Below, piece by piece: positions 6,262 through 21,595 of a DNA stretch of 64,000 nucleotides. The DNA comes from Candidatus Uhrbacteria bacterium (lineage in GTDB: Bacteria > Patescibacteriota > Patescibacteriia > 2-12-FULL-60-25). The stretch's first letter is position 1. Every line of letters starts with the position of its first letter. Position numbers and translations under genes: made by a program. Below the pieces are notes generated by a model. That model was not told the DNA's origin. It did not search any database and saw nothing but the letters and a program-made list of their open reading frames with translations. The stretch spans positions 1 to 64,000 of the forward strand of contig JAHBAS020000007.1 in assembly GCA_018499965.2 (NCBI GenBank). Direction: 5' to 3'.

Positions 6262-6697
6262 TAGGCTTTTGCGGTGGTCGGGAACGTGTATGGGTGCGGA
6301 GCGGAATGGTGCGTCGCTCAACGCTGAACGCTCAACCGAGCGGGTGCAGAAGCCTTGAAGAAGGTGCTGCTATGTTGACCGGATCCTGGTAGTGCCCAGT
6401 ATGTGCATGAAGCACAAGTGCGGGATACCCGAGGACTTTTACGTTTTGTTTTTTGATTTTTTTGACTCGTCAAACGATGAACGTATGACTAGTACAGGGA
6501 TCCAGTTAACATATGGATCGGGCATTCAGTGAACAGGTCTGAATATCCGTCCCTCTGCAGTTTGAAGGTGCGGGCGCCAGGGAATCCTTCTCTTCGGGCA
6601 AGCCAGAGGGCTCGCAGGGCAAGTGACACCGATTTGATGTCCAAGAAGGTTGGCAGGGAAGCCGTGCTGATTTACAGGTGGCCTCTTTAAAGTCCGT
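6206..6697 (-). ncRNA. Candidate structured RNA in an 800-base gene-free stretch
   Basis: No convincing coding frame exists between 6031 and 6840. On the minus strand a good promoter (6732-6704) should start RNA near 6697, and a stem of 9 pairs with a T-rich tail would end it near 6206. In between are many small hairpins, for example GCGAGCC/GGCTTGC and CCCTCTG/CAGAGGG. The 5' end (AAAGAGGC) can pair with GCCTCTTT at the 3' end, giving a closed molecule of about 490 bases. I found no tmRNA ends, no RNase P GAAAGTC core and no SRP GGAA-loop motif, so the class is unknown. A T-rich run near 6430-6470 could split it. Confidence 0.4.
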
Positions 6698-13917: not shown

Positions 13918-14865
13918 ATGTCCAAAACGCTCTCCTCATATCTTCGCCAATACCTGGAGTATTTGGAAATCGAAAAAGGCCGATCGCAAATGACGATTCG
14001 GAACTACGAGTTTTACCTTCAGCGATTTATCGAATGGGCAAAAGATCCGGCAGCGGATGCGATTTCGAGCGAGATCATTCGTCAGTACCGGCTTTATCTC
14101 AATAGACTCGAAGACGGTCGAGGGAACGGCACGCTAAAGAAGAATACGCAGAATTATCATCTCATCGCCCTTCGTTCCTTTTTGAAATACCTCGCCCGCA
14201 ATGACGTGCAAACGCTTCCGGCGGAAAAGATCGAACTCGCAAAGCAAGGTTCTCGCGACGTGGCCTTTCTTGATGCGCCGGATCTCTCGCGTCTTTTGGA
14301 TGCGCCGGACCGGACGGACGCGCCGAAGATCATTAAAGTTCGTGATCGCGCTATCCTCGAACTTTTTTTCTCAACGGGTCTTCGCGTATCCGAGCTTGCG
14401 AACTTGCGAAAAGAACATATCAACCTCGATCGCGATGAATTCACGGTCCGCGGAAAAGGCGATAAGACGCGCGTCGTTTTCATTTCGCATCAAGCAAAGC
14501 ATTCGCTCAAAGCGTATCTCGATATGCGCGAAGACGAGCGCCCATTCCTCTTTTTGCGGCATGATCGCGCAGCTTCCGGCGCGGATGTGATCGGCCCGAT
14601 CACACCGCGATCCATCGAGCGTCTCGTGCATCGCTACGCCGTTTTCTCCGGGATTCCAAAGCACGTCACACCGCATACGCTTCGGCACTCGTTTGCAACG
14701 GATCTTCTCATGAATGGCGCGGACATCCGCTCGGTGCAATCTATGCTCGGCCATAGCAGCATCACGACCACGCAGATTTATACGCATATCACCAACCAGC
14801 AATTGCGTCAGGTGCATGAGGCGTTTCATGATGTGAGGAGAGAGGGAAAGAAGGATGATGAATAA
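13918..14865 (+). CDS. xerD: Tyrosine recombinase XerC/XerD
   Basis: Site-specific recombinase that resolves chromosome dimers at dif sites. 315 residues with the SAM-like N-terminal DNA-binding domain (about 5-100) and the catalytic domain. The full catalytic set is visible: R156 (TGLRVSEL), K180 (RGKGDK), H253 and R256 (HTLRHSF), H279 (LGHSS) and Y288 (IYTH). It stands alone, away from any mobile element, so a housekeeping role is likely; many reduced genomes use a single Xer protein. XerC versus XerD cannot be separated by eye. Confidence 0.88.
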   Translation: MSKTLSSYLRQYLEYLEIEKGRSQMTIRNYEFYLQRFIEWAKDPAADAISSEIIRQYRLYLNRLEDGRGNGTLKKNTQNYHLIALRSFLKYLARNDVQTLPAEKIELAKQGSRDVAFLDAPDLSRLLDAPDRTDAPKIIKVRDRAILELFFSTGLRVSELANLRKEHINLDRDEFTVRGKGDKTRVVFISHQAKHSLKAYLDMREDERPFLFLRHDRAASGADVIGPITPRSIERLVHRYAVFSGIPKHVTPHTLRHSFATDLLMNGADIRSVQSMLGHSSITTTQIYTHITNQQLRQVHEAFHDVRREGKKDDE

Positions 14866-14908: not shown

Positions 14909-15520
14909 ATGCCTAAAATTTCCACCATTAAAAAACCCGAACCTGCATCCAAAGACACGCTCATCCCAACCGGGTTGATCGTGATCGCCGACTACGTTGA
15001 GCGCGTGCCGGAACGCGCGATCGAATTGCTTACGTATGAGTTGCAGCGTCGTGAGCGCGAAAAAGTTCTCCTTGAAGAAACGAAGGGATTCCTTTCCTGG
15101 CATCCGTGGAGCACGCTTCGGCTTCTCCTGCTTTCCGGTGGCGTCGCTTTTACCGTGGCGTGGTCATTTAGTTTGATTTCGGACTTCATGCGTCTCTATA
15201 ACGAGACCGTTACACGAGCGAACCTGCAAGGCGCGGCGTTTGGAAATGCGAGCATGGATTTGACGAAGCTCATCCCACAGTCCGCTTTCGGATTTTTTTC
15301 CGGCCTTCCGGAGTTTGGAACCAAAGAATCCGTTCTCGTCGCACTCGGCGTGATCGTTGCGCTTGCGGCATTTAAGCTTCTCTTCATTCTGTTGAATTGG
15401 GAGAAGATCAAAGTGTTAAACATCTCCGATCGAGCGCTCATGGAAGAGATGAGATACCTTAAAGGATGGATTGCTGTTTTAAAGCAACCGTCGACACCGG
15501 TAGTAGCGAAGGCCGCATAA
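14909..15520 (+). CDS. Two-helix membrane protein of unknown function
   Basis: 203 residues. A soluble N-terminal region (about 65 residues, charged and helical) precedes two membrane helices (about 70-92 and 145-165) separated by an outside loop of about 50 residues with Phe/Gly-rich sequence; the tail returns to the cytoplasm. No family recognised. It follows the recombinase gene after 43 bases and precedes tRNA-Arg. Confidence 0.75.
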   Translation: MPKISTIKKPEPASKDTLIPTGLIVIADYVERVPERAIELLTYELQRREREKVLLEETKGFLSWHPWSTLRLLLLSGGVAFTVAWSFSLISDFMRLYNETVTRANLQGAAFGNASMDLTKLIPQSAFGFFSGLPEFGTKESVLVALGVIVALAAFKLLFILLNWEKIKVLNISDRALMEEMRYLKGWIAVLKQPSTPVVAKAA

Positions 15521-15596: not shown

Positions 15597-15672
15597 GCCC
15601 CGGTAGTTCAACGGATAGAATAGCGGACTTCTAAGCCGTCAGATGTTGGTTCGATTCCAACCCGGGGCACCA
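15597..15672 (+). tRNA. tRNA-Arg (anticodon TCT)
   Basis: Acceptor GCCCCGG pairs with CCGGGGC; the anticodon loop CTTCTAA gives UCU; the T arm is GTTGG-TTCGATT-CCAAC. Discriminator A and an encoded CCA end the gene at 15672. The last anticodon-stem pair is an A-G mismatch. A terminator follows. Confidence 0.93.
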
Positions 15673-15675
15673 TGC

Positions 15676-15703
15676 AAAACTCCTCGCAATCGCGGGGAGT
15701 TTT
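15676..15703. terminator. Bidirectional terminator between tRNA-Arg and the cyclodipeptide synthase gene
   Basis: AAAACTCCTCGC pairs with GCGGGGAGTTTT around AATC, between two convergent genes. Confidence 0.88.
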
Positions 15704-15726
15704 GCTGTATGTAGAGATTATTTTCT

Positions 15727-16395
15727 CTACAAGCCTTTTCCGATTCTCAATTCGACTAATATCATTTCTGCAAGTGAAGGCGAGCCTTCCCGAAGGCATC
15801 CTGATGTAATTTCTTTCATGACAGGCAAGTGTGCTCCCGGATAGATATTTACGCCGTACCCCTCTATCACGAGCAATTCAAAAAGCGCGAGTTCTTCAAT
15901 TTGATAAAACTTAGAGTGGCGACGAGCGCTTGCGGTATGCAAGTGCGTTACTGATTTTCGTTCAAGGAATGCATTGACACCTTCCTCGATGAAACGTTGA
16001 AAAATGAGGTCAGTCTCCCATAGCTTTTCAAATGCATCAACGCGTTCTCGAAACGGTGACTCTCGACATAATTCGGCGGCTGATAAAATTTTAACATGGG
16101 AAAGATCGAGGGAATCAAGAAGCTTGCGAATGCGACGAATGCGAAGTTTTCCTTCCTCTACTGCGATATCTAAAGCGCGTTGTTCGGTTACGTCCTGTTG
16201 ATCTTCGATATTATGACGATGAAAGTAGTCTCCGATGACGATGTCGAAACTTGATACATGGTTACGGGTCCATTCTATAATCTCGCGTAATCGAGCAGTT
16301 GAAGCCGATGTATTATTACTTAGACTTATACTGATATACCCACGGCTCGTGCGCAACAGATTTTCTTTTTCTGCCGGGAAAATAGTAACAAGCAT
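15727..16395 (-). CDS. tRNA-dependent cyclodipeptide synthase (AlbC/CDPS family)
   Basis: CDPSs take two aminoacyl-tRNAs and join their amino acids into a cyclic dipeptide by a ping-pong mechanism through an acyl-serine. 222 residues, close to the family size. Compared from memory with AlbC: YISISLSNNTS (20-30) aligns with the nucleophile loop GISAGNS, making S24 the nucleophile and N27 the AlbC N40 equivalent; a basic helix (KLRIRRIRK, 83-91) fits the tRNA-binding helix; FYQIEELALF (163-172) gives Y164 and E168, matching AlbC Y178 and E182; Y185 in NIYPG matches Y202, but with P next to it as in the XYP subfamily. No oxidase, methyltransferase or P450 partner lies beside it. It is convergent with tRNA-Arg. 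Product unknown. Confidence 0.8.
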   Translation of the reverse strand: MLVTIFPAEKENLLRTSRGYISISLSNNTSASTARLREIIEWTRNHVSSFDIVIGDYFHRHNIEDQQDVTEQRALDIAVEEGKLRIRRIRKLLDSLDLSHVKILSAAELCRESPFRERVDAFEKLWETDLIFQRFIEEGVNAFLERKSVTHLHTASARRHSKFYQIEELALFELLVIEGYGVNIYPGAHLPVMKEITSGCLREGSPSLAEMILVELRIGKGL

Positions 16396-16595
16396 ACGCT
16401 TGTGTAAGCATATAGCAGCGTATGGTCTGAATCAAATGAAGAAAAGAACGAAGGAGATCTGGATAGAAGGTTCGAAAAGAAATCCGTATGGATTTTATGT
16501 AAGTTAGACTTGACGCATCGTATGCTTTATGTAAAGCTGATGGCATCGCGATGAGCAAGTTGATTCGCGTGCAAAGTCAAAAAAGAAGGTGGTCC

Positions 16596-16949
16596 ATGAA
16601 ACGTTTTTTTGCAGCGTTAGGTGTCACGGCGGTAGGTATCTCGTTGTTCGGCTTTCTTCCTCCGTCTCAGGTTCCGGTTGATAGAGAGGCGCGGGAAAAG
16701 TGGGAAGAAAAAGAGAGGTTAAGAGTCGTTCAAGAAGGACAAAATGAGCAAGCGTCTCGACAGGCACTCCTTCAAACTAAAGCGAATGAAGTCGTAAGCG
16801 TCATTCAGTACATTGAGGATACGCGAACAAGTCCGCATCTCTGCTTCGCGTATATTTGGTCAGGTTCTCCTGACGGTGGTCCAGGCTTTGCACATGTTCC
16901 GTGTGAAGCGATTCCGCCAGGGCTGCTGACGAAGGCAGAGGTGAAGTGA
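16596..16949 (+). CDS. Small secreted protein with charged helix
   Basis: 117 residues from the ATG at 16596, chosen because GAAGGTGG lies just before it; an in-frame ATG at 16551 would add 15 residues. A signal-like hydrophobic segment (residues 4-23) is followed by a strongly charged helix rich in E/K/R/Q and a C-terminal part with two cysteines (HLCFAYIW and HVPCEAIPP). Function unknown. Its own terminator follows. Confidence 0.65.
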   Translation: MKRFFAALGVTAVGISLFGFLPPSQVPVDREAREKWEEKERLRVVQEGQNEQASRQALLQTKANEVVSVIQYIEDTRTSPHLCFAYIWSGSPDGGPGFAHVPCEAIPPGLLTKAEVK

Positions 16950-16984
16950 GCACGTGTGTCGTCTACTTAGGCAGATCGCTGCCT

Positions 16985-17021
16985 CCCGCCGTATCAGGAG
17001 ATATGGCGGGTTTGTTTTTTT
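16985..17021 (+). terminator. Terminator of the small secreted protein gene
   Basis: CCCGCCGTATC pairs with GATATGGCGGG, tail TTTGTTTTTTT. Confidence 0.9.
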
Positions 17022-17117
17022 AGATGATCTGTTGTAATTTCACGTGCGTGAATGCTGGGTGAAGACTTGGCTTCATTCGCACCCTATAAAAGAAAAGACA
17101 CCGAAAGGGCCAGGATC

Positions 17118-18215
17118 ATGGATGAAGTTCGTCGTTTTTCGTGTTATCGAGACGGTGAAGTCATCACCGCCGATGGGAAAATGGTTCGATTTACGTGCGC
17201 TCCCGAGGACGTGGAAAAGGTGCGCGATTTTTTCGCCACCCACGTTCGGAGCATCGAAAGGACATTAACCGGTCGCATTCGGGACTTGGAAGGAAGGGGG
17301 CATGGGTATTCGCGATACGACATCGTTCAGCATAAGTATGCCGGTGGCGGAAGCGGGTACATCCAGGTTCTTGAAATCAGGAATCCTCCGGACGGGCGAT
17401 GGGGTTTCGTGATCGAGATGTTCGACGGCTGGGCCGGAACGATGTTTACGGAATGGGATACGATCGAACAGGCATGCGCGGCGTATGAAGCTTATTGGGG
17501 AACGCGTGACCTTCAAGAGAAGCTCCCGACATTGGAGGGGTTTCGTCGCCAAGTGAATTGCGGCGTACTCACTCCCTGGTTTTTAGCCATTGGAAATGAA
17601 CAGCTTGTTGGCGACTACACGTTTCCACATGACTTGCAGGATGATCCGGTGTTCCGTTTTGGAAAACGATTCGTCGTGACGGATTTCGAAGGCGTTCCGG
17701 CGATCAAGTCCTGCATGGGAACGCGTTTCATCAAGCGCATGACAGGTTCGTATCCTCAACGGGAGGAGGTGTATCGCCTCGTGTACTGGGATGATGGAAG
17801 CGTATGGGATGATCGCAGTTCTTCGTCAAAGCGACCTCGTCCGCTCCACGGAGGTGAGCTATGGATCACGGAAGCCTTGCGGAAGTTCATGCATATCCTC
17901 GCAGGAAAAGGGACAGAGCTTCGTATTGATTTCACGAACGGGGACCGTTTCACTGGAAAGCTTAATAGGCCCAAACAATGCACGCATCATCTGGAAGGTC
18001 GTTACTTCGTCGTTGTACGGGTAAAGGGAAAGAATACGTACAACGAAGGATGGGTAGACTTCAAACCCACAGTTGAACTTCCAAACGTCGCGCAATACGT
18101 CGCTCATCTCGCGCGAGAGAAAGGAACGGAAATCGAATATCTGGAAGTGAAACAGTATCAAACGCAACAAGGAGGGAAGAAGTGGCCCGGTGTCTTTTTT
18201 TCTCCGACGCCGTAA
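17118..18215 (+). CDS. Hypothetical protein (365 aa)
   Basis: No family recognised. I start at 17118 because TATAAA (17085-17090) and AAAGGG precede that ATG in the right order; an ATG at 17052 would lie upstream of the -10 box. The protein is soluble, Trp/Tyr/Phe-rich, with no signal peptide, membrane helix or repeat. Two stretches with short beta-like segments (around 100-150 and 260-320) suggest separate domains. A strong terminator follows. Confidence 0.75.
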   Translation: MDEVRRFSCYRDGEVITADGKMVRFTCAPEDVEKVRDFFATHVRSIERTLTGRIRDLEGRGHGYSRYDIVQHKYAGGGSGYIQVLEIRNPPDGRWGFVIEMFDGWAGTMFTEWDTIEQACAAYEAYWGTRDLQEKLPTLEGFRRQVNCGVLTPWFLAIGNEQLVGDYTFPHDLQDDPVFRFGKRFVVTDFEGVPAIKSCMGTRFIKRMTGSYPQREEVYRLVYWDDGSVWDDRSSSSKRPRPLHGGELWITEALRKFMHILAGKGTELRIDFTNGDRFTGKLNRPKQCTHHLEGRYFVVVRVKGKNTYNEGWVDFKPTVELPNVAQYVAHLAREKGTEIEYLEVKQYQTQQGGKKWPGVFFSPTP

Positions 18216-18236
18216 CGAAGGAGGTTCGTCTCAAGA

Positions 18237-18277
18237 GCCGTGGATTGTCCAAATAAGGATGGTCCACGGCGTTTTCG
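18237..18277 (+). terminator. Terminator of the 365-residue protein gene
   Basis: GCCGTGGA pairs with TCCACGGC around an 18-base loop; tail GTTTTCG. Confidence 0.7.
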
Positions 18278-18368
18278 TAGATCGAAAAGTTGACGTTTTT
18301 TGCTAAAAGGCGTTTGCTATAGGGGTAACGGTTGGTTGTTATCGCCGTTCTTTTGAAAGGGTTGGCTT

Positions 18369-18632
18369 ATGCAGGAAGTACGGAAAATACCAAAGGTTCC
18401 TTTGCCGATGCCGAATGATCAGACGGATCCATATCTCGTAGAGGGATCAGACCGATCCGTCAAAGACGCTTCGCGCGCTCGTCGAGATTTTTCGTATACG
18501 GTTCTCTTGTCCCCAAAGGGAGATCTCTATCAGCAAGCTCGTACGGCGATCATCGCGAAGCTTGGTCATGGGGATTTCGTGATCAAGAAGATTCTCCTCA
18601 TGGGCTCTGCTCCTGGTACTCGTCCCCGTTGA
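18369..18632 (+). CDS. Small hypothetical protein (87 aa)
   Basis: AAAGGG 8 bases before the ATG supports this start. The N-terminal half is Pro/Asp/Ser-rich and probably disordered; residues 43-80 could form a compact alpha/beta unit (FSYTVLLSPKG, then a helix and VIKKILLMG). Unknown function. It has its own terminator, so it is likely a monocistronic gene. Confidence 0.55.
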   Translation: MQEVRKIPKVPLPMPNDQTDPYLVEGSDRSVKDASRARRDFSYTVLLSPKGDLYQQARTAIIAKLGHGDFVIKKILLMGSAPGTRPR

Positions 18633-18680
18633 CCCCTGGGCCCGATCGTTATTCGGGTTCGGGGGTCGCTTATTTTTTTA
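18631..18680 (+). terminator. Terminator of the 87-residue protein gene
   Basis: GACCCC...GGGGGTC with inner CCCGA/TCGGG pairing; tail GCTTATTTTTTTA. Confidence 0.85.
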
Positions 18681-18691
18681 GCCGCATCTCA

Positions 18692-18720
18692 TTGACTTCC
18701 TCTCAGAAAGATCCTACGCT
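18692..18720 (+). promoter_or_regulatory. Promoter of the SPFH gene
   Basis: TTGACT (18692-18697), 17 bases, TACGCT (18715-18720), then 8 bases to the ATG at 18729: a leaderless arrangement. Confidence 0.65.
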
Positions 18721-18728
18721 CCTCCTAT

Positions 18729-19475
18729 ATGGAAATCTTTTTTTCTCTCCTTCCGTTCGCGATCGTGCTCCTTATTGCGTCCATCCGTCAGGTGAACCAA
18801 TATGAGCGTGGCGTGAAGTTTACCTTCGGTCGCTATACCAAGCTCGTTGAGCCAGGGTGGCGACTTGTGTTCCCGGTGATCCAATCCATGCGAAAAGTAG
18901 ACGTTCGCATCAAAGCCACGGATGTACCGGATCAGGAAGCGATTACGCGCGACAACGTGAGCTGCCGCATTAACGCGGTCATCTACTATCGCATCGTAGA
19001 TGCGGGCAAGGCTGTGCTCGAAGTGGAAAACGTTTGGTACGCCGTGAACCAGCTCGCGCAGACGACCATGCGAAACGTGGTCGGTCAGCTCGCCTTGGAT
19101 GAACTCCTTTCCCAGCGCGACCAGGCATCCCTTCGCATCCGTGAAATCATCGAACAGGACGCGATCGCCTGGGGTCTCGACGTGTCGAACGTAGAATTGA
19201 AAGACATTACGCTTCCAGAAGATATGAAGCGAACGATCGGTAAGCAGGCCGAAGCCGAGCGCGAACGTCGTGCGGTGATCATCAATTCCGAGGGAGAAGT
19301 CGTTGCCGCCGAGAACCTCAGAAAAGCCGCGGATATCCTAGCTTCTTCATCCGGCGCGCTTCATCTCCGTACGCTCAACTCCATCAACGATATCTCATCG
19401 GATCAATCCAATACCGTCGTTTTCGCCGTTCCATTGGAGGTCTTGAAGGCTTTTGAGAACTGGTCGAAGAAATAG
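18729..19475 (+). CDS. SPFH/band 7 (slipin-stomatin) membrane protein
   Basis: 248 residues. One N-terminal membrane helix (2-20) is followed by a band 7 domain: NQYERGVKFTFGRY, EPGWRLVFPVIQ and IAWGLDVSNVELKDI are slipin hallmarks. A charged helical segment (about 175-200) would drive oligomerisation. Slipins scaffold membrane microdomains and are often paired with an NfeD-type protease partner, which is not next to this gene. It has its own promoter and terminator. Confidence 0.93.
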   Translation: MEIFFSLLPFAIVLLIASIRQVNQYERGVKFTFGRYTKLVEPGWRLVFPVIQSMRKVDVRIKATDVPDQEAITRDNVSCRINAVIYYRIVDAGKAVLEVENVWYAVNQLAQTTMRNVVGQLALDELLSQRDQASLRIREIIEQDAIAWGLDVSNVELKDITLPEDMKRTIGKQAEAERERRAVIINSEGEVVAAENLRKAADILASSSGALHLRTLNSINDISSDQSNTVVFAVPLEVLKAFENWSKK

Positions 19476-19490
19476 TTCCAAAGTCTTAAA

Positions 19491-19521
19491 GAAAAAGATC
19501 CGTAGTAACGGGTCTTTTTCT
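19491..19521 (+). terminator. Terminator of the SPFH gene
   Basis: GAAAAAGATCCGT pairs with ACGGGTCTTTTTC around AGTA, tail TTTTC. Confidence 0.85.
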
Positions 19522-19553
19522 TTTCTCTCAACCTATCTACACTGGATAGATCT

Positions 19554-19880
19554 ATGTCCCATACGCTCTCTAAGATTCAAACTCTTGTGATGGAAGTCGC
19601 AAAAGAAAAAGGATTCGGCACAAAGCCGGAAGAAGTAAATGTCGGTGAGAAAATCGCCCTTATCCACTCGGAGGTTTCCGAAGCCTATGAGGCCTATCGC
19701 CATAAGAACATGGACGGGGAGGACGGGTTCCGCGAAGAGCTCGGAGATGTCGTTCAGCGCATTCTTCATCTCGCCGGTATTTTTGGAATCGATCTTGAAG
19801 CCGAAATCGTAAGAAAGATCGAAGAAAATAAAGGGCGAGAATGGAAGTGGGGCGGTATGAATGAAGGGCACGTGTCATGA
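19554..19880 (+). CDS. MazG-like nucleotide pyrophosphohydrolase
   Basis: 108 residues of the all-alpha NTP-PPase (MazG/iMazG) fold. The metal-binding ExxE...ExxD pattern is visible: HSEVSEAYEAYR then REELGDVVQRILHLAG. Such enzymes hydrolyse (d)NTPs, often damaged ones, to NMP and PPi. TACACT ends 10 bases before the ATG and no Shine-Dalgarno is seen. Substrate not predictable. Confidence 0.88.
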   Translation: MSHTLSKIQTLVMEVAKEKGFGTKPEEVNVGEKIALIHSEVSEAYEAYRHKNMDGEDGFREELGDVVQRILHLAGIFGIDLEAEIVRKIEENKGREWKWGGMNEGHVS

Positions 19881-19892
19881 GTTTGCGTATCC

Positions 19893-19921
19893 TTGTCTCT
19901 AATCCCGAATCGCCGTACACT
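19893..19921 (+). promoter_or_regulatory. Promoter of the lipoprotein gene at 19930
   Basis: TTGTCT (19893-19898), 17 bases, TACACT (19916-19921), then 8 bases to the ATG: leaderless arrangement. Confidence 0.6.
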
Positions 19922-19929
19922 CTTTTTAT

Positions 19930-20583
19930 ATGAAGCGAATACTCACATTTCTCGTTCTCGGAGCTCTCTTTGGCGCGGGCTGCACGAAACCGATTTCAAG
20001 GCCCGCGATACCTTCTCCTGGAACGGGGTCCACATCGACGTCTGGCGAAGAAACGGGTCGGGTTCCAGCTTCATGGAATACCGCGAATATTTCCGTTGGC
20101 GAGGCGATTGTCCATATGTTATTCCCCGGATCATTCGTGATGACCAATACGAATAGCGATGGGCAGGTGATGAACGTGGACATGGGGACGGCGGTCGAGA
20201 AGCCGGGTGAGCGTTCCGTGCCAGGACGATCGATGCGCATCTTCGTGGTCGACCCTCAGGACCAGCGCATGCGCGACTGCGTATTTTCCGAAAACGAGTG
20301 GACCGCGGGTCGTGCACCGGAGATGAAGACGAATCTAACGTTCGGAACGTCAAAGCTCTCTTTCTGCGAATCGAGCGAGCAGGAAGGCGCGGCGGGGAAT
20401 CGGTACTCGGTCTACACGTATACCACCCCAATCGGCGGGCAAATCCTCGTGTTGGAATTCACGGTGCACTCCGTGGTATGTGAAAACTTCGAGCGCCCGG
20501 AAGAACAATGCGTAAGCTTCGACGAAGCCCGGGATACGGCGATTTTCCCGGATATCCTCTCACGTATCACCGTGGAGGAATAA
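19930..20583 (+). CDS. Predicted lipoprotein of unknown function
   Basis: 217 residues. The lipobox LFGAGC puts the lipidated cysteine at residue 18; a Ser/Thr/Pro/Gly linker of about 25 residues follows, then a beta-rich outside domain with three cysteines (DCVFSE, SFCESS, VVCENF plus EQCVSF) that could pair as disulfides. No known domain recognised. It is a likely substrate of the signal peptidase II encoded at 5162. Confidence 0.8.
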   Translation: MKRILTFLVLGALFGAGCTKPISRPAIPSPGTGSTSTSGEETGRVPASWNTANISVGEAIVHMLFPGSFVMTNTNSDGQVMNVDMGTAVEKPGERSVPGRSMRIFVVDPQDQRMRDCVFSENEWTAGRAPEMKTNLTFGTSKLSFCESSEQEGAAGNRYSVYTYTTPIGGQILVLEFTVHSVVCENFERPEEQCVSFDEARDTAIFPDILSRITVEE

Positions 20584-20587
20584 GATC

Positions 20588-20616
20588 TTGCCAAAATCGT
20601 CTGAATCCCGTATGAT
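20588..20616 (+). promoter_or_regulatory. Promoter of tRNA-His
   Basis: TTGCCA (20588-20593), 17 bases, TATGAT (20611-20616). The leader before the tRNA (about 100 bases) contains two hairpins, AGGAC/GTCCT and the palindrome CGCCTTAAGGCG. Confidence 0.65.
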
Positions 20617-20722
20617 CCCTTCGCTTTCGGGTGTATTTTGCAGACAACTAAGAGGAGGCTTTTAGCGAAATGCGTCAGGACCCTGTGTCCTCCGCCTTAA
20701 GGCGCTACGCCCTTCTTCCCAT

Positions 20723-20797
20723 GGTGACCATGGTGTAGAGGCAACACAGCGGGTTGTGGTCCCGTTATCATGGGTTCGATTCCCATTGGTCACCCCA
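20723..20797 (+). tRNA. tRNA-His (anticodon GTG)
   Basis: GTGACCA pairs with TGGTCAC; an extra 5' G (20723) faces C73, the identity pair of histidine tRNAs. Anticodon loop TTGTGGT contains GTG; T arm ATGGG-TTCGATT-CCCAT. CCA is encoded and ends at 20797. Confidence 0.93.
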
Positions 20798-20798
20798 T

Positions 20799-20830
20799 AA
20801 AAAACCCCTCGATTATTCGAGGGGTTTTTT
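20799..20830. terminator. Terminator of tRNA-His
   Basis: AAAAAACCCCTCGA pairs with TCGAGGGGTTTTTT. The stop codon of the convergent minus-strand gene (20813) lies inside it. Confidence 0.9.
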
Positions 20831-21406
20831 ATTTAATTCTTCTCTAAACTCCTGAACAGCATCCATCTCTTGTGAGCGCCAACTCTCTGTTACGCTAATG
20901 ACTTTTTTGAGCACAGGATCTTGATTCTCGCTTAGTTGAAAAAAGAATATATAGGGCTCTTCTCCTCCAATTTTGTCTCCTTTAATATAAACATTTGATA
21001 CAGCGAGTATCCCTATATAACCGTCTAAATCTTTATACGCTAACGGTTCACTAAATCTAGGTGGCGAAATCAATGCGTTCTGTAGAGCCTCAACCTTTTT
21101 CAGGTATTCATCCTTCTCTTCTTGGCTTTCTGCTTTTGCTATCTGATTTTCATAAAATTCTTTTCGCTTATCACGATACGCCGTCCCGTAAAAACTTCTT
21201 ATCGCTTCATGGATCTCTTCTTTTTGATCCTCATTCAAGTTGATCGTACTGATCCCTTTTTCAGCGAGCTCTTTTGTATTTCTGTAAAAGTAATCCTGAT
21301 CTGTTTTGTTTTGATTCCTGACCAATCCGGTGTTGATTTTCATAGCTAAAATGATCAACACGAGCGTGTACAAACATGCGAATAATAAAAATTTTATTTT
21401 TTTCAT
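20813..21406 (-). CDS. Membrane-anchored protein of unknown function, AT-rich
   Basis: 197 residues from the ATG at 21406, chosen because it begins directly with a membrane anchor (MKKIKFLLFACLYTLVLIILAMK, here residues 1-22 approximately); an upstream start would put 23 polar residues before it. A charged helical section (about 55-110) and a compact C-terminal domain follow. Base composition is visibly more AT-rich than its neighbours, which may mean later acquisition. No family recognised. Confidence 0.7.
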   Translation of the reverse strand: MKKIKFLLFACLYTLVLIILAMKINTGLVRNQNKTDQDYFYRNTKELAEKGISTINLNEDQKEEIHEAIRSFYGTAYRDKRKEFYENQIAKAESQEEKDEYLKKVEALQNALISPPRFSEPLAYKDLDGYIGILAVSNVYIKGDKIGGEEPYIFFFQLSENQDPVLKKVISVTESWRSQEMDAVQEFREELNKKPLE

Positions 21407-21595
21407 ATCGTCCAGTTGGATGATTAATGAAAGCCGTTCTTTTTCTTTTATACATGAGCCTGGTGTATTTTTCAATTAAGCTCGAATAGGGAGCTGAACC
21501 ACTCACGACACAATAAGTGTCTTCCTCGTCCCAAAAGGCGGGGATTTTTGTATACCTCTAACGGGATTGAAAACCAGGTGCTACGATAGGTTGAT

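Follow-up and report, generated by a model that had tools for sequence, protein, structure and literature searches.

The gene located at positions 15727-16395 on the minus strand of the analysed stretch of 64,000 nucleotides (hereafter the window), from the genome of a Candidatus Uhrbacteria bacterium, encodes a real, ordinary-looking yet divergent cyclodipeptide synthase (CDPS), designated here as CDPS1. Very probably, CDPS1 is a free-standing XYP-type enzyme that is catalytically competent and releases an unmodified cyclodipeptide; its gene was probably acquired laterally. Two points are of interest, namely the presence of two CDPSs of separate origin (CDPS1 and CDPS2) in one reduced genome and the position of the CDPS1 gene in a variable slot beside a tRNA gene.

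The open reading frame of CDPS1 is intact, with an ATG start and neither a stop nor a frameshift in its 222 codons, and no canonical start occurs in the in-frame region upstream, up to the preceding stop. The protein exceeds the curated cut-offs of both family profiles, Pfam PF16715 (31.3 bits; cut-off 27) and NCBIfam TIGR04539 (60.6 bits; cut-off 45), and a sequence search of the PDB with E up to 10 returned 14 matches, all of them CDPSs, of which the first is the CDPS of Streptomyces sapporonensis (9j61; E 3e-9). With CDPS1 left out, a profile of 20 other family members scored it at 86.7 bits and its shuffled versions at no more than 4.0 bits (500 made, 357 reported), and the match to the family is thus far beyond chance. 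Close relatives were found neither by a single-sequence scan of genome contigs, nor by tblastn in plasmids, nor by an alignment scan of viral contigs; no ortholog of CDPS1 was found in the sequence searches, and a promoter scan revealed no promoter-like site for the gene.

The structure of CDPS1 was modelled with AlphaFold2 (pLDDT 79.6, pTM 0.77) from an input alignment of CDPS1 with 13 family members from its phylum, the model being weak at residues 188-206 and at both ends. All 50 Foldseek matches of this model at E<=0.001 are CDPSs. The best E-value was obtained with 9j61 (TM 0.67-0.72), and the TM values were 0.75-0.77 for Fdum-CDPS, 0.55-0.60 for the NYH-type enzymes AlbC and YvmC, and 0.44-0.50 for ParcuCDPS. 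In an AlbC-indexed alignment, (i) S24, N27 and D56 correspond to S37, N40 and D68, (ii) Y164 and E168 correspond to Y178 and E182, and (iii) Y185 corresponds to Y202 and P186 to position 203, which is H203 in AlbC. This mapping reproduced 14 of the 15 published pocket residues of ParcuCDPS (PMC5816076, Table 2), a count that allows for the E174L mutation carried by the ParcuCDPS chain used. CDPS1 therefore keeps all four catalytic residues and, in D56, the Asp equivalent to D58 of ParcuCDPS, whose loss removes >90% of activity (PMC7613923). The family assignment made in the initial annotation is upheld by the profile scores, by a predicted fold whose matches at E<=0.001 are CDPSs only and by this complete catalytic set; the residues it had quoted (S24, N27, the KLRIRRIRK helix, Y164, E168, Y185 and P186) are all found where it had placed them.

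The basic helix KLRIRRIRK had also been taken as a CDPS signature, and this part of the argument is not retained. In the solved structure of an XYP enzyme bound to tRNA, it is strands beta2 and beta7 that grip the acceptor stem; their basic motifs in XYP enzymes are K-phi-x-F and L(R/K)FKK, respectively (PMC7566563). These motifs are not clear in CDPS1, in contrast to the classic XYP enzymes: its beta2 region is the N-terminal MLVTIF, without Lys, and its beta7 motif is partial (LRIGK at 216-220), both lying at the low-confidence ends of the model. The helix is consequently of uncertain weight. As for the reaction, by analogy with the family CDPS1 would draw on the EF-Tu pool for an aminoacyl-tRNA and move its amino acid onto S24 in pocket P1; a second aminoacyl group would be accepted from another aminoacyl-tRNA via pocket P2, with E168 as the base and Y164 and Y185 as helpers, and the cyclised dipeptide would be released without modification.

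What defines the XYP subfamily is the Pro that follows the final Tyr; any residue may occupy the X position. CDPS1 is accordingly classified from its sequence as XYP-type, since P186 follows Y185. It departs from the NYH type, in which the final catalytic Tyr is followed by His: AlbC and YvmC share with CDPS1 the catalytic Ser, Asn40, Tyr, Glu and Tyr, but have this His in place of Pro186. An Asn at X40 is also present in ParcuCDPS, in 9j61 and in all other XYP rows of the same phylum in the alignment; it is thus common in XYP enzymes, and the mix of NYH and XYP features read into the protein by the initial annotation is ruled out, X40 being a free position (PMC7613923).

A maximum-likelihood tree of 21 CDPSs resolved three groups, NYH (96/93), ParcuCDPS-like XYP (99/96) and classic XYP (89/88), the last of which includes CDPS1, 9j61, Fdum, Nbra and L030. 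The branch of CDPS1 is long (1.61 changes per column) and the support for classic XYP is moderate. CDPS1 falls outside the ParcuCDPS-like clade in the best tree, and in AU tests its inclusion in that clade and its grouping with NYH enzymes both gave p 0.055, just short of rejection, whereas a sister position to CDPS2 was rejected (p 4e-4). Subfamily profiles scored CDPS1 at 80.6 bits for classic XYP, against 34.7 bits for NYH and 34.4 bits for the ParcuCDPS-like group. Taken together, the tree and the profiles place CDPS1, with moderate confidence, among the classic XYP enzymes and not in the ParcuCDPS clade, which is a new result of this analysis.

Comparison with characterised enzymes gives the following picture. 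The reference enzymes of the classic XYP type are Fdum-CDPS (5ocd), Nbra-CDPS (5mlq) and Rgry-CDPS (5mlp). Fdum and Nbra, which belong to the same tree group as CDPS1, have like it an aromatic residue at 156 and R159 in P2, but their X40 is Q or A and they carry W119, the corresponding residues of CDPS1 being N and A. The S. sapporonensis enzyme 9j61 is XYP-type and shares with CDPS1 the N at X40, G67, a small residue at 119, F186 and G204, although the identity is only about 20%; its PDB entry is titled only cyclodipeptide synthase, and its organism and pocket motif suggest that it is of the BcmA type. BcmA-type enzymes, from bicyclomycin clusters, are cyclo(Ile-Leu) synthases, and CDPS1 differs from them in having no oxygenase cluster of the bcmB-G type. 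ParcuCDPS (PDB 7qb8), which makes cyclo(His-Pro) and cyclo(His-Glu), comes from the same broad host group, is XYP-type with N at X40 and has the same Ser-Asp pair (S26/D58, S24/D56 in CDPS1), but it belongs to the other clade, its P1 is GAYAWELY instead of YSVGALFN, and its relative in the genome is CDPS2.

In AlbC indexing, pockets P1 and P2 of CDPS1 read YSVGALFN and GAFRGLP, and both are unlike any published consensus. The consensus of the cLI/cLL (BcmA-like) group is FGLGCVFM for P1 and FRYRGFS for P2 (PMC5816076, Table 2); CDPS1 is identical to it at 2 of 8 and 2 of 7 positions, respectively, which leaves it outside that group. The nearest P1 is that of 9j61 (FGLGCIFM), since both have G67 and their residue 119 is small, most other enzymes having Trp there; the P1 of 9j61 resembles those of cLI/cLL makers, i.e. 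of cyclo(Leu-Ile) and cyclo(Leu-Leu). The only named relative found among genome contigs lies on Photorhabdus khanii contig NZ_AYSJ01000007, to which PMC5930311 assigns part of a bcm-like cluster that is fragmented. This contig and the likeness of P1 to that of 9j61 suggest, with low confidence, that P1 of CDPS1 might hold an aliphatic residue, a tentative assignment that is rather less probable than its opposite. Separately, the BcmA-like CDPS of P. khanii (L031:5890-6648) reads as interrupted in frame at 6396.

A rival reading is that CDPS1 descends from a CDPS but no longer catalyses, serving instead as a regulator or sink that binds aminoacyl-tRNA or some other ligand; the long branch, the lack of a detected ortholog, the unusual P1 and P2 and the weak start of the beta2 motif speak for such a role. 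However, none of S24, N27, D56, Y164, E168, Y185 and P186 has been lost and the reading frame is unbroken, so that this explanation has a low probability. CDPS1 is thus probably an active enzyme, and its product is likely a plain cyclodipeptide, because neither a cytochrome P450 (PF00067) nor a 2OG-oxygenase (PF03171) was matched in the 94%-complete genome. In agreement with the initial annotation, no tailoring enzyme was recognised nearby, and the combination of 2OG dioxygenases and a P450 with a CDPS that marks bicyclomycin-type pathways gave no match in this genome.

The CDPS1 gene lies in the following setting, given by window positions:

13918-14865, plus strand: tyrosine recombinase of the Xer type, also present in relatives (73-77%)
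14909-15520, plus strand: conserved 203-aa gene, left flank of the slot
15597-15672, plus strand: tRNA-Arg(TCT), convergent with CDPS1 and 54 bases from its stop, left end of the slot
15673-18728, no strand: variable slot of about 3.06 kb, from tRNA-Arg to the SPFH gene
15674-15731, no strand: two back-to-back hairpins between tRNA-Arg and CDPS1
15727-16395, minus strand: CDPS1, XYP-type cyclodipeptide synthase, 222 aa
16551-16949, plus strand: 132-aa ORF in the slot, divergent from CDPS1, no family found
17052-18215, plus strand: 387-aa ORF in the slot, no family found
18369-18632, plus strand: 87-aa ORF in the slot, no family found
18729-19475, plus strand: SPFH/Band 7 gene, right flank of the slot, 70-81% identity in relatives

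The convergent tRNA-Arg(TCT), reported at the outset to lie 54 bases away, was confirmed. The hairpin at 15674-15705 has 14 pairs (z -9.5) and that at 15710-15731, which overlaps the CDPS1 stop, has 8 pairs (z -7.0); they are probably the terminators of the convergent tRNA-Arg and CDPS1 transcripts, and a simple terminator scan flagged neither of them. The distance between tRNA-Arg and the SPFH gene is only about 160 bases in a genome of the same genus (G003), about 630 bases in another relative (G001) and about 40 bases in a genome of another genus (G012). The CDPS1 gene is accessory. Its GC3 is 0.386, compared with a mean of 0.535 (sd 0.058) for 51 ORFs of the window, and the 387-aa ORF of the slot has an ordinary GC3 of 0.549. 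The shortness of the slot in related genomes and the low GC3 indicate that the gene was probably acquired laterally into the slot behind tRNA-Arg(TCT), which is also reported here for the first time. A mobile element with its own integrase was considered and is not supported: the Xer-type recombinase at 13918 belongs to the left flank and is conserved in the relatives that share the locus, and hence is not part of the insert. No second copy of the 3' end of tRNA-Arg was found in the window. A second variable stretch extends from the SPFH gene to tRNA-His (window 19476-20723), measuring 1.25 kb versus about 120 bases in G003, and the ORF at 20813-21475, with a GC of 0.36 against a window mean of 0.50, is possibly another foreign gene.

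A variable slot beside a tRNA gene, a low GC3 and the absence of the gene from the three other genomes of the genus examined would also suit a recent acquisition that is decaying without a selected function in its host. This reading is slightly less probable still than the loss of catalysis, as the 222 codons contain no stop or frameshift, the catalytic residues are all present and the genome retains a second CDPS. Last, the idea that CDPS1 was wrongly taken for a CDPS and has another HUP-class fold, for instance that of an aminoacyl-tRNA synthetase-like protein, draws on the HUP Rossmann fold that CDPSs share with class Ic synthetases (PMC2922099) but is refuted, since no synthetase or other HUP family was matched in the Pfam, NCBIfam and PDB sequence searches and the structure prediction led at E<=0.001 to CDPSs only. 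A functional, laterally acquired CDPS therefore stands as the preferred reading.

The initial annotation is to be supplemented on one point: a second enzyme of the family, CDPS2, is encoded on another contig of the same genome (G000:C15:3449-4153, L014, minus strand) and scores 67.3 bits against PF16715. CDPS2 belongs to the ParcuCDPS clade, unlike CDPS1, and the two proteins hence have, by their sequences, separate histories, a further new finding. The CDPS2 gene, of low GC (0.384), follows prfB at a distance of 5 bases, and 60 bases separate it from the ABC transporter gene that comes next. A link between CDPS2 and this exporter is weak, for the ABC gene has a 56% ortholog in a genome without CDPS (G002), and the closest relative of CDPS2 (L018) has no ABC neighbour.

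The carriage of a CDPS by so small a genome had been considered notable. The genome is indeed small (1.11 Mb; 94% complete), but the surprise is lessened by the precedent of ParcuCDPS, from Parcubacteria RAAC4_OD1_1, which was assayed in 2018 (PMC5816076) and whose structure was solved in 2022 (PMC7613923). Genome sizes of 0.5-1.6 Mb across many families of the phylum, and the ParcuCDPS-like relatives, point to the Patescibacteria. Scores above the TIGR04539 cut-off were reached in 8 of the 381 genomes searched for the class and in 6 of the 380 searched for the phylum, the source genome being counted in both; CDPSs are present in 2 of the 41 genomes of the order examined and in none of the three other genomes of the same genus examined. 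Both NYH and XYP types occur in the phylum. Each CDPS gene of the patescibacterial genomes compared sits in a different gene context, and no tailoring partner is shared among them. One further match (L012, in G098) was dropped as a chance match inside a RuvA-like protein.

Several other CDPS loci were noted during these comparisons. In two other genomes of the class, an NYH CDPS is fused to a C-terminal SBP_bac_3 solute-binding domain (L015:5019-6458 and L016:836-2323), and none of the papers in the library searched contains both 'cyclodipeptide synthase' and 'solute-binding protein'. A shortened relative of these fusions (L020:8065-8643) is open in frame, but its CDPS domain is cut short towards the end and most of its SBP domain is missing. 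An XYP CDPS of G365 (L022:8210-8911) naturally carries Cys instead of the nucleophilic Ser (PVCLGN); in ParcuCDPS, S26C gave the highest yield among the mutants tested (PMC7613923). A class I methyltransferase gene (L050:6680-7390) precedes an NYH CDPS gene of the same strand by 22 bases, and the two possibly form a tailoring pair. Finally, a gene of peptidase family S51 (L053:11288-11944) lies 50 bases downstream of a CDPS-like gene, on the same strand.

The source bacterium is probably host-dependent. Roles toward the host have been discussed for CDPSs of intracellular bacteria (PMC2922099), and by analogy such a role is possible for CDPS1. A broader reading, which is unlikely, is that a host-dependent Patescibacterium collected these two unrelated enzymes, one of them within a small insert at a tRNA gene, and that the two different unmodified cyclodipeptides they release act on its host or competitors; CDPS1, whose pockets match no published group, would then make a dipeptide ring so far assigned to no CDPS. 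CDPS1 adds to minimal, probably host-dependent bacteria an XYP-type CDPS lineage distinct from ParcuCDPS, and a single genome of about 1.1 Mb can carry two CDPSs of separate origin. Among the genomes sampled for the phylum, only some 2% have a CDPS above the family cut-off, and the gene contexts differ, a pattern that fits repeated gain of single genes and makes the benefit of cyclodipeptides to a reduced cell directly testable.
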